DNA of 64,000 nucleotides, from contig JBFMCV010000004.1 of NCBI GenBank assembly GCA_040754335.1, positions 62,001 through 126,000 on the forward strand, read 5' to 3'. This document shows, piece by piece, positions 25,281 to 30,603 of this stretch; positions within the stretch are counted from its first letter, which is position 1, and every line of letters starts with the position of its first letter. Origin of the DNA: Thermodesulfobacteriota bacterium. GTDB lineage: Bacteria > Desulfobacterota_D > UBA1144 > Nemesobacterales > UBA2774. The notes below the pieces were generated by a model that did no database searches, was not told where the DNA came from, and saw only the letters and a program-made list of their open reading frames with translations. The translations under genes and the position numbers were made by a program.

Positions 25281-26360
25281 TCACTCGATCACGACCGACG
25301 ATTCCACTTTACCCGTCTCCGGGTCGTAAATGTATTCCTCTCCCAGGGGATGAGCGGGGAAATCAGCCGTGGTCTCGAGCTCGATGAACTCTCTCAGCTC
25401 GTCCAGACTCTTCGGATAATCTCCGTATAGGCTCTTGTATCTCGCGGCTTTCGCTTGTAATAAAGCTGTGCTTTGGTTTATTTGCTGATCTACGAGAACC
25501 GTATTTTTTACGGATTCGATTTTTGGCGCAATAATGAACTTGCCGCCTACAGGCGAGGCCGGGATTCCTCCCTTTATCATCCCCGCCTTTACCATGTCTT
25601 CCATGGAGTCTGGAAATTTGCCGTATGCCCTGACGTACTCCTTCAGCGATTCGGTAAGCTCGTCCTCGATTGCCATTGTGTCTATCTCTTTGATATTCCT
25701 GAGTGCAAAATCTCTTCTGCCCTCGCTGGGGCTGGTTTCATAGATTATCTCCCAGATCTTTCTCGAGAGCTCGCTGTTCCCTCCTCTGGCATGAGCGGAT
25801 GCCGCCATGCCTTTCATCGATGCCTTCCTCAACGGAGAGATACCCGGTTTATCTGCGGCTTCCCCGAACAGCTCGGCCGCTTTATCGTAGTTCTTGGGAT
25901 AGAAATAGTAAATGAAAGCCTCTTCGAGAGGCAGGCGGTAGTTCTCGGGGTTGTTCTTCCTGCCTTTATCGAATAGCTCTATCCCCTTCATTGTTTCACC
26001 TAGACCGAAAGGCGGCGGCTCCGCGAGGAACGTACCTCCGTACCGGTATGCGCTTACGAACTTCGGGTCTAGGTCCGTGATAATATCGAAGTAGTGGTAG
26101 AGTAGGTCGGGATTCTGCTCTTCGAGTTTTTTACTTCCAAAGTACTGAAGCGCTCTCAGCCAATATATATCCGCGAGCAGCTCGTGGTAACCCATCGAGA
26201 TTTTCTTGAGTGACGAGGACGAGAGATAAAGGCTTTCGTCCACCGAACGGAACTTTCCTCTTATGTCATCGATCTTGTTCTGGAAGGGGACCGATGCGGC
26301 GATTAACAAAGCCAGGATTACTATGGCGAACATAGGCTTTTTCGCGATATATGCTGACAT
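25281..26360 (-). CDS. Membrane-anchored TPR protein of the pilin/ABC cluster, with two pseudopilin-like C-terminal repeats
   Basis: 359 residues: one N-terminal membrane helix (about 10-24, FAIVILALLIAASVPF), then helical tetratricopeptide-type repeats (about 50-230, e.g. YHELLADIYWLRALQYFG, NYDKAAELFGEA). The C-terminal third holds two copies of a motif resembling type II/IV pseudopilin tails: YGKFPDSMEDMV...IPASPVGGKF and YGDYPKSLDELR...FPAHPLGEEYIYD. It begins 3 bp after the ABC permease gene, so it belongs to the same operon. By position it may correspond to the third component of the Myxococcus PilG/PilH/PilI set; I infer this from context, not from proven sequence similarity. Confidence 0.8.
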   Translation of the reverse strand: MSAYIAKKPMFAIVILALLIAASVPFQNKIDDIRGKFRSVDESLYLSSSSLKKISMGYHELLADIYWLRALQYFGSKKLEEQNPDLLYHYFDIITDLDPKFVSAYRYGGTFLAEPPPFGLGETMKGIELFDKGRKNNPENYRLPLEEAFIYYFYPKNYDKAAELFGEAADKPGISPLRKASMKGMAASAHARGGNSELSRKIWEIIYETSPSEGRRDFALRNIKEIDTMAIEDELTESLKEYVRAYGKFPDSMEDMVKAGMIKGGIPASPVGGKFIIAPKIESVKNTVLVDQQINQSTALLQAKAARYKSLYGDYPKSLDELREFIELETTADFPAHPLGEEYIYDPETGKVESSVVIE

Positions 26361-26363
26361 CGG

Positions 26364-27170
26364 TTATTTAAACTCTTTTCTCTCGAAAATAACTGTCGCG
26401 AGTATGAGGAGGGCGAGCGTATATATGACGGCGTATACGGTTGTGTATAGAATCAGGTCGGGGTTGATTACGCCTCCGTACACGGCTTCGCTCCTCACGT
26501 CGAATTTCTCGAGGTTCGGAATGATCCTGTAAACCGCCTCTGAAAATAGTGCACTTACCGGACTTTTTACTTCCTCTGCGAATAATCTGACGTCGCTCGA
26601 GAAGCGCCCAATCGCGATTGCGAAAAAGGTGAATAACGCGCTCAGCACCGGGGTCGTGAAGCTCGAAAAGACGAGCGCTATGCCGATTACGACCAGGAAT
26701 TCGAGGTACTCGAAATATACGGCGTTAAAGAACTCGGCGTAGTAATGTCCCCCGTAATAAAAACTTATTAGACCCTCGTATTTGATTTCTATTAACAATA
26801 CTAGCAGAAAAAGTATAAGCGCCATGCCGAGCGTGATAACGAATAGTGTAAATCCGAGGCCGAGATACTTGCCGAATATGAATTCGTATCTCTTTATGGG
26901 TTTCGAGAAAATGTTGTACACGGTTTTTCTCTCCACCTCTTTATAAACGAGGCCTATGCCGAGGAAGACCGAGATCAGTATCCCGATTACGGATATGGCG
27001 GTGAGACCCAGGTCCTTGACAATCTTGTTATACTGCTCAGCCGATATGCTCGCGAATATGAGCGAGCTCAGGATCATTATTATCGCGAACAGTATCAGGC
27101 TGTAGAGCACCCTGTCCCTGATTGCCTCTATGAACGTATTGTGCGCGACGCTCAGTATTCTTCTCATCAC
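26364..27170 (-). CDS. ABC-2 type transporter permease (PilI-like by context)
   Basis: 268-residue integral membrane protein with six predicted helices in the ABC-2 pattern: TM1 (LYSLILFAIIMILSSLIFA), TM2 (TAISVIGILISVFLGIGLVY), then the amphipathic segment NIFSKPIKRYEFIFGKYLGLG characteristic of these permeases, TM3 (TLFVITLGMALILFLLVLLI), two closely spaced helices (VVIGIALVFSSFTTPVLSALFTFFAIA) and a last helix at the C-terminus. It pairs with the ABC ATPase 31 bp upstream and the TPR protein 3 bp downstream. The cluster with pilin genes suggests a role in pilus function. Confidence 0.86.
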   Translation of the reverse strand: MMRRILSVAHNTFIEAIRDRVLYSLILFAIIMILSSLIFASISAEQYNKIVKDLGLTAISVIGILISVFLGIGLVYKEVERKTVYNIFSKPIKRYEFIFGKYLGLGFTLFVITLGMALILFLLVLLIEIKYEGLISFYYGGHYYAEFFNAVYFEYLEFLVVIGIALVFSSFTTPVLSALFTFFAIAIGRFSSDVRLFAEEVKSPVSALFSEAVYRIIPNLEKFDVRSEAVYGGVINPDLILYTTVYAVIYTLALLILATVIFERKEFK

Positions 27171-27201: not shown

Positions 27202-28149
27202 TTACTTTTCCTTTTGCGGGCTCCCTTTTTTGGCTTCCTCCACGAAAAGCCCTTCGAGGGACTTCCTCAGCGGGTGTATGGACACTATCTCCGCAGACGT
27301 GCGCGTGACGGCTTCGAGGACCCTCCGTTTTATGTCTTCGTCGAATTTCAGCACTATGTATCCTGCTCTATGCTCCATCTCGACACTCAGGTCTTTTACG
27401 CATTGCTTGATTTCGTCGCCCGCTCCTTCGAGGTGCATTTCGTAGTTAGTGTGTATCTCTTTAAGCAGCTCCCCTATCTTTCCGATCTTTATCACCACAC
27501 CCTCCATGATTATCCCCACCCTGTCGCAGAGCGCTTCCACGTCCGAGAGCATATGCGAGCTGAGGAGAATTGTCTTTCCCTTTCTTTTCTCTTCGAGTAT
27601 CAGGTCTTTTATTTCCCTCCGTCCTATAGGGTCGAGCCCGCTCATCGGCTCGTCGAGTATCAGGAACTCCGGGTCGTTAATGAGCGCTTGGGCGATGCCG
27701 ATTCGCTGCATCATGCCCTTCGAATATTTCCTCATCTGTACTTTTCTTGCATGATCCATCCTGACTTTCCCGAGCAGCTCGTCTATTTTTTCGTGGAGGT
27801 GTTTCCGTCTGAGTCCGTGGAGCTCGCCCATGTAATAAAGGAGCTCTTCTCCCGTGAGGTAATCGTAGAAATAAGGGTTCTCGGGCAGATAGCCTATCCT
27901 GCTTTTTGCGTCGGAGTTAGAATGCTCTTTGCCGAGCAGCTCTATCTTTCCTTCGGTAGGAGTGACGAATCCCAGGATCGATTTGAATGTCGTCGTCTTT
28001 CCGGCGCCGTTAGGCCCGACGAAGCCGAACACCTCGCCCTTGGAGACGTCGAAGGATACGTTCTTGAGGACGCGCGTCTTCTTGCCCGTGAATCCGGTTT
28101 TGTAGTCTTTGACGAGGTTCGTGATATTGAGAATCGCTTCTGACATCAT
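27202..28149 (-). CDS. ABC transporter ATP-binding protein (PilH-like by context)
   Basis: 315-residue nucleotide-binding subunit with Walker A GPNGAGKTTTFKSILG (about 45-60), signature YSKGMMQRIGIAQAL, Walker B FLILDEPMSGLDP and the H-loop LLSSHMLSDVEALCD, followed by a C-terminal extension of about 90 residues found in many ABC-2 exporter ATPases. Two possible ATG codons are adjacent at the start. It lies 77 bp downstream of a type IV pilin gene on the same strand and 31 bp upstream of its permease. In Myxococcus xanthus a pilin-linked ABC transporter (PilH) is needed for pilus assembly, which makes a similar role plausible here. Confidence 0.92.
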   Translation of the reverse strand: MMSEAILNITNLVKDYKTGFTGKKTRVLKNVSFDVSKGEVFGFVGPNGAGKTTTFKSILGFVTPTEGKIELLGKEHSNSDAKSRIGYLPENPYFYDYLTGEELLYYMGELHGLRRKHLHEKIDELLGKVRMDHARKVQMRKYSKGMMQRIGIAQALINDPEFLILDEPMSGLDPIGRREIKDLILEEKRKGKTILLSSHMLSDVEALCDRVGIIMEGVVIKIGKIGELLKEIHTNYEMHLEGAGDEIKQCVKDLSVEMEHRAGYIVLKFDEDIKRRVLEAVTRTSAEIVSIHPLRKSLEGLFVEEAKKGSPQKEK

Positions 28150-28226: not shown

Positions 28227-28826
28227 TTATCCGTCGCAAGCGGGATCGTTACGCCCGGATTCGAAAGTACCGGTTGTTCCCGACGCTTGGGATGAAACTG
28301 TACATTTCGTAACTTTATCTGCAAAGGCTGAAAAATCTTTCCTGCCGTTTACCCGTGCGCTCGTCATCGAGGCTTCCCAACCGAAATCCCCTTGTAATGA
28401 TTGCACGTCGCTTCCAGCGTCGTCGCTCCATGAGAGACAGTATCCGGCTTTGGGGTCGACGCAATCAGCGGAGGCTGCGGGACTGCCGTCGCTTGAGACC
28501 GCATCTTCAAAAGTGGAGTCTATTAGCGCATCCTCTGGATTGTTCGTTCCTGCAGGGTCCCTGAGAGTGCCTGCAGTGCCGAGTACACCGATAAAATTTG
28601 TAAAATTTCTGTCACCGTTATTATCCAGATCCTGTTCGAAATACTCGTATTCGGCGTCTTTAAGGGTCTGTAGTGCTTTTCTTGCATTAGCCTCGTTTGA
28701 GGAGATACGGGCTTTTAAGAGGTTGGGGATCGCGATTGCCAGAAGAATACCTATTATCGCCGCGACTACAAGAAGCTCGATGAGTGTAAAACCGTTTTCG
28801 TCTTTTTTATTTTCCTCTTGGTTCAT
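28227..28826 (-). CDS. Type IV pilin-like protein (second of a tandem pair)
   Basis: 199-residue prepilin with a short charged leader (MNQEENKKDENG) and the class III signal GFTLIELLVVAAIIGILLAI, where prepilin peptidase cuts after G and the conserved E5 follows. The hydrophobic helix runs to about residue 33, then the N-terminal alpha-helix (ARISSNEANARKALQTLKDAE) and a beta-rich head with four Cys residues in the DCVDPKAGYC and KCTVSS...DPACDG regions. An AGAGGA lies eight bases before the ATG. The head is related to that of the upstream pilin, so the two arose by duplication. A sigma-54-like promoter lies just upstream. Confidence 0.93.
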   Translation of the reverse strand: MNQEENKKDENGFTLIELLVVAAIIGILLAIAIPNLLKARISSNEANARKALQTLKDAEYEYFEQDLDNNGDRNFTNFIGVLGTAGTLRDPAGTNNPEDALIDSTFEDAVSSDGSPAASADCVDPKAGYCLSWSDDAGSDVQSLQGDFGWEASMTSARVNGRKDFSAFADKVTKCTVSSQASGTTGTFESGRNDPACDG

Positions 28827-28851: not shown

Positions 28852-28867
28852 AGCAATATCCATACCA
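28852..28867 (-). promoter_or_regulatory. Candidate sigma-54 (-24/-12) promoter of the second pilin gene
   Basis: On the minus strand the sequence TGGTATGGATATTGCT (28867 to 28852) has GG and GC with the exact ten-base spacing of sigma-54 promoters and a good TTGCT -12 element; the -24 element TGGTAT differs from TGGCAC at two bases. Transcription would begin near 28841, leaving about 15 bases before the ATG at 28826 that still include the AGAGGA ribosome-binding site. Confidence 0.5.
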
Positions 28868-29160
28868 TATTGGCCCTAATCTTAACAGCCTAAATAAGCT
28901 TGTAATCCACCGAAATCATTGCACAAATCTATACTGAGGCATGGGTCGAAGATGGAACTACACATGAAATCCATTTCGTAGACCGATGACCTTACAATAT
29001 TTGTCATCGTGATGCAGTTTTTGTTATTCCAGTAATTCTAATAGGGATGTAGCACTTGGCGTTTTTGATCGGATCGATTTTATATTTACTTAGAAATATA
29101 TAACGGCGGGTTGTTAATAAACCCGCCGTTATAAGTTTTGTCTTGTGAATTGTTAGGGTA
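28868..29160. other. Intergenic stretch between the two pilin genes
   Basis: No gene is seen. It is AT-rich compared with the flanking chromosome. It contains a strong inverted repeat near its right end (listed separately), TGACA/TGTC-type boxes around 28994-29010 (minus strand TGACAAATATTG) that could be activator sites for the second pilin promoter, and otherwise nothing recognised. Confidence 0.5.
29099..29133. terminator. Strong hairpin after the first pilin gene, probable terminator
   Basis: A 14 bp perfect inverted repeat (29099-29112 with 29120-29133; core AACGGCGGGTT / AACCCGCCGTT) with a 7-base loop lies 28 bp past the stop codon of the upstream pilin gene. On the minus strand it is followed by TATTTCT, on the plus strand by AGTTTTGTCTT. 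It would end or reduce transcription of the first pilin before the second, letting the main pilin be expressed in excess. Confidence 0.75.
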
Positions 29161-29739
29161 TTAATCGCAGCCGGGGCTGGTACGATCTGCTTGAAATGTT
29201 CCTGCCGCTCCAACTCCTGATGTGCTAAGCGTACACCTTATTGCACCGTCGCCATATACAGAGAAGTCTCTTCTACCAGTCTTGTTGAAGCTTGTCATAC
29301 TGGTTTGCCAGCCGAAGTCATCAAAATTACCGGCGCCGTTGGCTACTATTGCCGTATCCCACTGAATACAGTATCCGGCCTTCGGATCAATGCAACCCGC
29401 ACCGACTGCACCTTCGAAGCTGCTGTCAACAAGTGCATCCTCTTCTGTTCCAGTTCCCTCTGGGTCTCGTAGTGACGGAACTGTTCCAAAAGCTCCTATA
29501 TCATCGATAAAATCCCTTTCACCGTTGTTGTCCAGGTCCTGCTCGAAATACTCGCCCTCTGCATCTCTCAAGGTCTGCATGGACTTCCTGGCATTTGCCT
29601 CGTTCGCCGACATTCTCGCCTTGATAAGGTTAGGAATCGCGATCGCGAGCAGTATGCCTATGATTGCCGCTACTACGAGAAGCTCGATAAGGGTGAAACC
29701 CTTCTCTCCCCTCTTTACATTCTTTAACGTGCTTAACAT
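29161..29739 (-). CDS. Type IV major pilin-like protein (first of a tandem pair)
   Basis: 192 residues from the ATG at 29739, chosen because AAGGAGG lies eight bases upstream; the frame is open to 29817 but those extra codons overlap the promoter. Short leader MLSTLKNVKRGEKG, then prepilin cleavage site and hydrophobic helix GFTLIELLVVAAIIGILLAI with the conserved E5, followed by the N-terminal helix (ARMSANEANARKSMQTLRDAE) and a beta-rich head with CIDPKAGYC and two further Cys near the C-terminus. The head is similar to that of the next gene. It has a near-perfect sigma-54 promoter and paired upstream boxes, and is followed by a strong hairpin. Confidence 0.94.
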   Translation of the reverse strand: MLSTLKNVKRGEKGFTLIELLVVAAIIGILLAIAIPNLIKARMSANEANARKSMQTLRDAEGEYFEQDLDNNGERDFIDDIGAFGTVPSLRDPEGTGTEEDALVDSSFEGAVGAGCIDPKAGYCIQWDTAIVANGAGNFDDFGWQTSMTSFNKTGRRDFSVYGDGAIRCTLSTSGVGAAGTFQADRTSPGCD

Positions 29740-29782: not shown

Positions 29783-29798
29783 TGCAAAGCCCGTGCCA
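29783..29798 (-). promoter_or_regulatory. Sigma-54 (-24/-12) promoter of the first pilin gene
   Basis: The minus-strand sequence TGGCACGGGCTTTGCA (29798 to 29783) matches the sigma-54 consensus TGGCAC-N5-TTGCA completely, with GG and GC spaced by ten bases. Transcription should begin near 29772, leaving a leader of about 33 bases that contains the AAGGAGG ribosome-binding site of the pilin. Sigma-54 control of pilin genes through the PilS/PilR two-component system is well known in Pseudomonas, Geobacter and Myxococcus. Confidence 0.85.
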
Positions 29799-29920
29799 CG
29801 TGCCGGGGTTTCAGCATATCCCGAGCATAATCTGCCTGAATTTAATGGAAAACGGTCGATTATACTCTTTTGTTATATGTGATGAGGAACTTCAGCTCTG
29901 GCCGCTGACTATGAAAATTG

Positions 29921-29964
29921 TGACACTTTTTGTCGTTGCCTTGACAATGTGACAAAAATTGTCA
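29921..29964. promoter_or_regulatory. Paired TGACA-N5-TGTCA boxes, candidate enhancer-binding (PilR-type) sites
   Basis: Two inverted-repeat boxes lie at 29921-29935 (TGACACTTTTTGTCG, one mismatch) and 29950-29964 (TGACAAAAATTGTCA, perfect arms), centred 29 bp apart. They sit about 150-190 bp upstream of the predicted start of pilin transcription, the usual distance for a sigma-54 activator. The half-site TGTC is the core of the PilR-binding consensus described upstream of pilA in Pseudomonas aeruginosa. They could also influence the divergent lipoprotein gene at 30073. Confidence 0.55.
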
Positions 29965-30072: not shown

Positions 30073-30603
30073 ATGCATAGAGATAAGCATTTAGTTTTCC
30101 CGCTGGTGGTTTTCCTCGCTGTCTTCGCCCTGCTTGCCGCGGGATGTACTACAATAAAGACTACTTCCTACTTTACTCCGACCAAGACGAAGCTGCGCGA
30201 CTATCAGGCAATGCAGTTCGAAACCTTCGAGACCCAGATCGAGGACTTCCCGAAAGCCGCGCTTACGAAGATACCGGATCAGGCAGCCGCTCTCCTCGAA
30301 TCCGAGAAAAAGTTCAAAGAAGTAAAATTCGGGGAAATTGAAAATATCCCAGCCGAGGATACTATAGTATTGTTAGGGGAGATAAGCGAGTACAGGCCTA
30401 GCTCGGATGTTTCATACGAAGGCGGGGCGCTTAAATTCGGCGAAGTCTCTATAGCCATCAAGCTCGCTCTTGTCAATAAAGCGACAGGTGACGAGATCGC
30501 GACTGGCGAGGTGAACGGTTTCAGCTCGACGGGCTTTATGGCGAAGGACATATTCGAAAGCATGGCCGAGGAAATCGTCAAGTACATCAACGAGACCTAT
30601 TGA
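30073..30603 (+). CDS. Lipoprotein of unknown function
   Basis: 176 residues with a lipoprotein signal peptide: charged start, hydrophobic run (LVFPLVVFLAVFALLAAGC) and lipobox LAAGC with C25 as the acylation site. The mature domain (about 30-176) has alternating strands and helices (TIVLLGEISEYRPSSD, EVSIAIKLALVNKATGDEIATGEV, ESMAEEIVKYINETY), a pattern like small curli-assembly CsgG-type or DUF4410-type lipoproteins, though I do not claim homology. AGGAGG precedes the start by eleven bases. Followed 43 bp later by a TPR protein in the same direction; the upstream pilin gene is divergent. Confidence 0.82.
   Translation: MHRDKHLVFPLVVFLAVFALLAAGCTTIKTTSYFTPTKTKLRDYQAMQFETFETQIEDFPKAALTKIPDQAAALLESEKKFKEVKFGEIENIPAEDTIVLLGEISEYRPSSDVSYEGGALKFGEVSIAIKLALVNKATGDEIATGEVNGFSSTGFMAKDIFESMAEEIVKYINETY

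Follow-up and report, generated by a model that had tools for sequence, protein, structure and literature searches.

Results

The pilin locus

The window, a 64,000-nucleotide stretch of a genome that is 98% complete, carries on its minus strand two type IV pilin genes, each of which has its own sigma-54 promoter and upstream activator box (Table 1). Translation of pilin 1 from the ATG at 29739 gives a normal prepilin leader of 14 aa (MLSTLKNVKRGEKG ahead of FTLIELL) and a mature protein of 178 aa, which is long, whereas PilA of Geobacter is short. A longer open reading frame starting at 29817 was considered implausible because the sigma-54 promoter would fall inside it. Orthologues of pilin 1 were found in 18 of the 31 genomes searched, its own genome counted. 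Directly past the stop codon lies a terminator hairpin that probably makes pilin 1 monocistronic; scans of this type give about 1.7 chance matches, and the stem found here is long and adjoins the stop codon.

A sequence-only reading of this DNA had described an exact -24/-12 element with ten bases between GG and GC, ending 44 bp before the pilin start codon. The element is indeed present on the minus strand, in a TGGCAC/TTGCA context, and is the sole exact match in the window, its distance to the ATG being 43 bp by our measurement. The start of transcription is predicted at about 29772, and in alignments of upstream regions the promoter is kept 40-57 bp ahead of most pilin orthologues. Sigma-70 promoters near pilin 1 were no more numerous than expected by chance.

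The same reading had placed two TGACA-N5-TGTCA boxes about 150-190 bp upstream of the predicted start. The position holds, with box centres at about 156 and 185 bp, and the distal box is exact, but the proximal one has a mismatch, so that the claim of two such boxes was a slight overstatement. The distal box lies 151 bp upstream of the -24 element and is kept at equal distance in two relatives (G001 and G002); the proximal box is conserved in part among relatives, and 14 bp separate the two. Dyads of 5-bp half-sites with a spacer of about 5 bp, paired and located upstream of a sigma-54 promoter, correspond to NtrC-type upstream activator sites.

The arrangement extends past the gene noted earlier: pilin 2 also has a sigma-54 promoter and a box. 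Its promoter is kept in G001, G002, G003 and G026, and its box is found 124 bp upstream of the -24 element, at a place where G001, G002 and G003 have an exact TGACA-N5-TGTCA. A gap of 77 bp separates pilin 2 from the gene of an ABC transporter ATP-binding protein, which probably shares its transcription unit, and the succession of pilin and ABC transporter genes resembles the pilA regions of Geobacter and Myxococcus. The last gene of the cluster encodes a protein for which Pfam and NCBIfam searches returned no family match. A pilin of G026 (G026:C51:16834-17412) is 82% identical to the window pilin, although the two genomes are assigned to different families, which could reflect horizontal transfer, misplacement or contamination.

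Table 1. Features of the pilin locus (positions in the window) and of related loci elsewhere in the genome (contig:position)
Feature	Position	Strand	Description
359-aa protein	25281..26360	-	last gene of cluster; no Pfam or NCBIfam match
ABC-2 type permease	26364..27170	-	Pfam PF12679
ABC transporter ATP-binding protein	27202..28149	-	Pfam ABC_tran PF00005
Pilin 2 (second type IV pilin)	28227..28826	-	199 aa, 59% identical to pilin 1
Pilin 2 sigma-54 promoter	28852..28867	-	TGGTATGGATATTGCT, 25 bp before ATG
Pilin 2 activator box	28992..29006	.	TGACAAATATTGTAA on minus strand, 9/10
Terminator hairpin after pilin 1	29099..29133	-	14-bp stem
Pilin 1 (major-type IV pilin)	29161..29739	-	192 aa; Pfam N_methyl PF07963, E=3e-9
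Pilin 1 sigma-54 promoter	29783..29798	-	TGGCACGGGCTTTGCA, exact -24/-12 consensus
Proximal activator box	29921..29935	.	TGACACTTTTTGTCG, 9/10, one mismatch
Distal activator box	29950..29964	.	TGACAAAAATTGTCA, 10/10, exact TGACA-N5-TGTCA
Box-bearing sigma-54 promoter	C4:13621		ORF-less stretch
Putative sigma-54-dependent sRNA	G000:C4:13482-13640	-	sigma-54 promoter, terminator, no conserved ORF
Box-bearing sigma-54 promoter	C4:171551	-	sigma-70-family sigma factor, 402 aa, regions 1.2-4
Box-bearing sigma-54 promoter	C4:376140		small secreted protein
Box-bearing sigma-54 promoter	C3:279881		subtilase
Box-bearing sigma-54 promoter	C7:63540	-	MshEN-receiver protein
Box-bearing sigma-54 promoter	C8:68732		PAS/GAF sensor
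Box-bearing sigma-54 promoter	C11:1151		secreted CBM96 protein
Tenth candidate target	C2:365741		PAS protein
pilB-pilT-pilC-pilS-pilR cluster	C4:240.5-248 kb		about 155 kb from the pilins, same contig

Association of the box with sigma-54 promoters

A genome-wide search for strict sigma-54 elements (TGGYAY-N5-TTGCW) returned 41, and the reversed control 4. A box matching at least 9 of the 10 positions was found within 175 bp upstream of nine of these 41 promoters and downstream of none, while dinucleotide shuffles gave an expectation of 0.2 box-bearing promoters, the largest count being 2 in 300 shuffles. The exact box occurs in only five copies in the 3.26-Mb genome; three of them lie ahead of strict sigma-54 elements, and a fourth, at C2:365741, is located 72 bp ahead of the near-consensus element TGGCATAGGAATTGCC. 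In the phylum, 58 genomes of which were scanned, the exact pair of box and promoter was found 24 times, in 13 genomes that all belong to this order; the reversed control gave none. Several named relatives are Candidatus Dadabacteria. In upstream alignments of pilin orthologues the promoter and the boxes stand out as islands of conservation, and the promoter together with at least one box or half-box recurs ahead of pilin orthologues across the order, some distant ones retaining only a degenerate box. The distances between box and promoter, judged by eye, displayed no clear pattern of helical phasing.

The full dyad was required in these searches after the half-site TGTCA alone had mixed in a second palindrome, TGTCAGA-N3-TCTGACA, which in many relatives lies a short way ahead of sigma-54 promoters (L092, L096 and others) and is probably the site of another activator. 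In the two cases read by eye the downstream genes were acetyltransferase-like and YbaK-like. PEP-CTERM/PrsR was considered as the owner of this palindrome and rejected, the two loci read having non-PEP-CTERM genes.

The wider set of box-bearing promoters

Together with those of the two pilins, the seven promoters listed in Table 1 make up the nine box-bearing ones. The distance from box to promoter at the sigma-factor site is 88-90 bp in eight genomes (G000, G001, G002, G003, G005, G006, G007 and G010). The protein encoded at C7:63540 has an N-terminal MshEN domain of the cyclic-di-GMP type, as in PilB, and a C-terminal receiver, and its gene adjoins a PII gene. At G000:C4:376140-377601, a second sigma-factor-like gene, recognized by eye, has its own sigma-54 promoter, and the next gene, for a small secreted repeat protein, has a sigma-54 promoter that carries the box. 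The suggestion that pilin control is linked to nitrogen found no support, since the sigma-54 promoter of the PII (glnB-like) gene at C7:64016 has no box.

The box-bearing promoter at C4:13621 precedes no recognizable gene, and the region is predicted to encode a sigma-54-dependent small RNA, with its own promoter, an intrinsic terminator, a conserved unpaired seed and no conserved ORF. The locus was found in six genomes of the family, adjoining a SuhB/inositol-monophosphatase-like gene (read by eye), and consists of a sigma-54 promoter located 59-137 bp upstream of a conserved block in which 24 invariant unpaired bases, GCCATAACATATTCCCCATCCTCT, are followed by the terminator hairpin; G000, G001 and G003 also have an exact box. 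Of the 16 predicted pairs of the hairpin, two carry compensatory changes, altered on both sides among the six genomes. The predicted G000 transcript folds better than all of 200 shuffles (z = -3.45), which is mostly an effect of the terminator. Rfam covariance models gave no match at E up to 1, and a search for targets by seed complementarity and duplex energies returned nothing convincing.

rpoN and the PilS/PilR pair

The regulators that the sequence-only reading had predicted are encoded in the genome: rpoN was found (PF04552, E=8.7e-55; TIGR02395 over cut-off), and so was a PilS/PilR pair, in a pilB-pilT-pilC-pilS-pilR cluster. The gene order pilBTC-SR is also that of Geobacter. PilR possesses a receiver, a GAFTGA AAA+ domain and a Fis-type HTH, and its gene adjoins those of a PilS-like kinase with six transmembrane segments and of PilBTC; no NCBIfam PilR model was among the 25 matches listed, and the name rests on domains and neighbors. 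It is one of 13 full-length sigma-54 activators in the genome. Its helix GITLRSLRYRLAKHEL hardly varies among the orthologues read and is unlike the C-termini of the other activators read (9 of the 13 in all). Full or partial PilR was detected in 18 of 44 genomes of the order, and the box-promoter pair occurs in 11 of these 18 against 2 of the 26 genomes without detected PilR (Fisher p = 2e-4, uncorrected for phylogeny).

Discussion

Control of pilin genes by sigma-54 and PilR is established in Geobacter (PMC2725144) and in Pseudomonas (PMC6058289), and the promoter of pilin 1 is a good but ordinary example of this known kind. We consider it likely that both pilins are transcribed by sigma-54 RNA polymerase with the help of an NtrC-type activator, most likely PilR, bound to the dyads, and that a small conserved regulon is under the same control. 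According to this model, dimers of PilR, phosphorylated by PilS, would occupy the TGACA-N5-TGTCA dyads located 120-155 bp upstream, oligomerize over the paired sites and loop to the promoter, where the GAFTGA AAA+ domain of PilR would drive open-complex formation. The activator of the pilins would most likely also switch on the sigma-70-family factor, the putative sRNA next to the SuhB-like gene, the MshEN-receiver protein, a secreted subtilase and PAS-domain sensors.

Several features are shared with the PilS/PilR-RpoN control of pilA in Geobacter sulfurreducens and Pseudomonas aeruginosa, namely a sigma-54 pilin promoter, the PilS/PilR pair and upstream activator sites (PMC2725144, PMC6058289). 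In contrast to these systems, here about 155 kb separate pilR from the pilin, promoter and box occur at each of two pilins, and a sigma-70-family factor and a putative sRNA belong to the conserved regulon. With regard to the sites themselves, those of NmpR, an NtrC-like regulator of Myxococcus xanthus, were shown experimentally to be GCGCA-N5-TGCGC with a preferred spacing of 14-15 (PMC11841059). Likewise, the sites described here are 5-N5-5 dyads, paired 14 bp apart and upstream of sigma-54 promoters, although the half-site is TGACA instead of GCGCA and the targets differ. In the sigma-54 regulome of Desulfovibrio vulgaris, NtrC-type activators drive pili operons and ncRNAs (PMC4641369, PMC3333781), but separate activators serve the pili (DVU2114) and the ncRNAs, whereas here one box type is common to the pilins and the putative sRNA.

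The geometry of the NmpR sites and the established role of PilR in Geobacter and Pseudomonas make PilR the leading candidate for binding the boxes, a plausible assignment with which gene content and co-occurrence agree. A real alternative, if an unlikely one, is that the promoters depend on sigma-54 and one of the other 12 NtrC-type activators binds the boxes, PilR acting elsewhere. The sequence-only reading had proposed to see whether the box sits before other pilus genes; this is the case for pilin 2, but the box-bearing genes are mostly non-pilus and the pilBTCSR operon lacks the box. A sigma-54-like element does occur 313 bp before pilB, and since it has no box, control of the pilus machinery through the same box is unsupported. 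In addition, box-promoter pairs are carried by G022 and G030, in which no PilR was detected, and the same holds for PilR in G026, which has the pilin (draft genomes, 92-94% complete). On the other hand, the box precedes both pilins, the classic target of PilR, the PilR helix is almost unchanged among the orthologues read and unlike the other activators read, and co-occurrence across genomes favors PilR, even though it discriminates weakly because there are 13 candidates and lineages without PilR have fewer activator-like candidates generally. Far less probable, and already disfavored, is that an unrelated dimeric regulator uses the boxes as operators to control the divergent gene at 30073-30603. 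The boxes of pilin 1 do lie in the 333-bp intergenic region shared with this gene, 109-150 bp from its start codon; nevertheless, the box is tied to sigma-54 promoters both genome-wide and across species, and no divergent gene is involved at the box of pilin 2.

As for the locus at C4:13621, it seems improbable that it is no RNA gene, the hairpin merely terminating the convergent SuhB-like gene and the promoter driving a tiny unrecognized peptide. The hairpin lies between the SuhB-like gene and the promoter and could terminate both transcripts, and an ORF of 12-19 aa can be read by eye at such loci in three genomes. However, this ORF is not kept in G002, G006 and G007, the sigma-54 promoter is retained in all six genomes, the 24 invariant bases are on the side of the hairpin away from the SuhB-like gene, and a T-rich tail follows the hairpin on the RNA strand. 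A putative sigma-54-dependent small RNA is the reading that we prefer.

What is new in this system is not the promoter but the regulon, with its sigma factor and its new putative sRNA. The lineage is represented here almost entirely by draft genomes of environmental origin; for it a concrete, testable activator box and regulon are now available, and the box motif can be used to search for the regulon elsewhere. Pili seem to be produced under a broader, conserved circuit, which ties type IV pilus expression to a sigma factor of a second tier and to a putative sRNA that is itself conserved; such a circuit was not met in the PilR literature found. Somewhat more tentatively, at slightly less than an even chance, we hypothesize that PilR is a hub and not just a switch for the pilin in this family of Dadabacteria, relaying signals of the surface or pilus state to both pilins, to a dedicated sigma-70-family factor and to a new family of sigma-54-dependent sRNA with an invariant 24-nt seed. 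If so, the status of the pilus would reprogram transcription and translation together.
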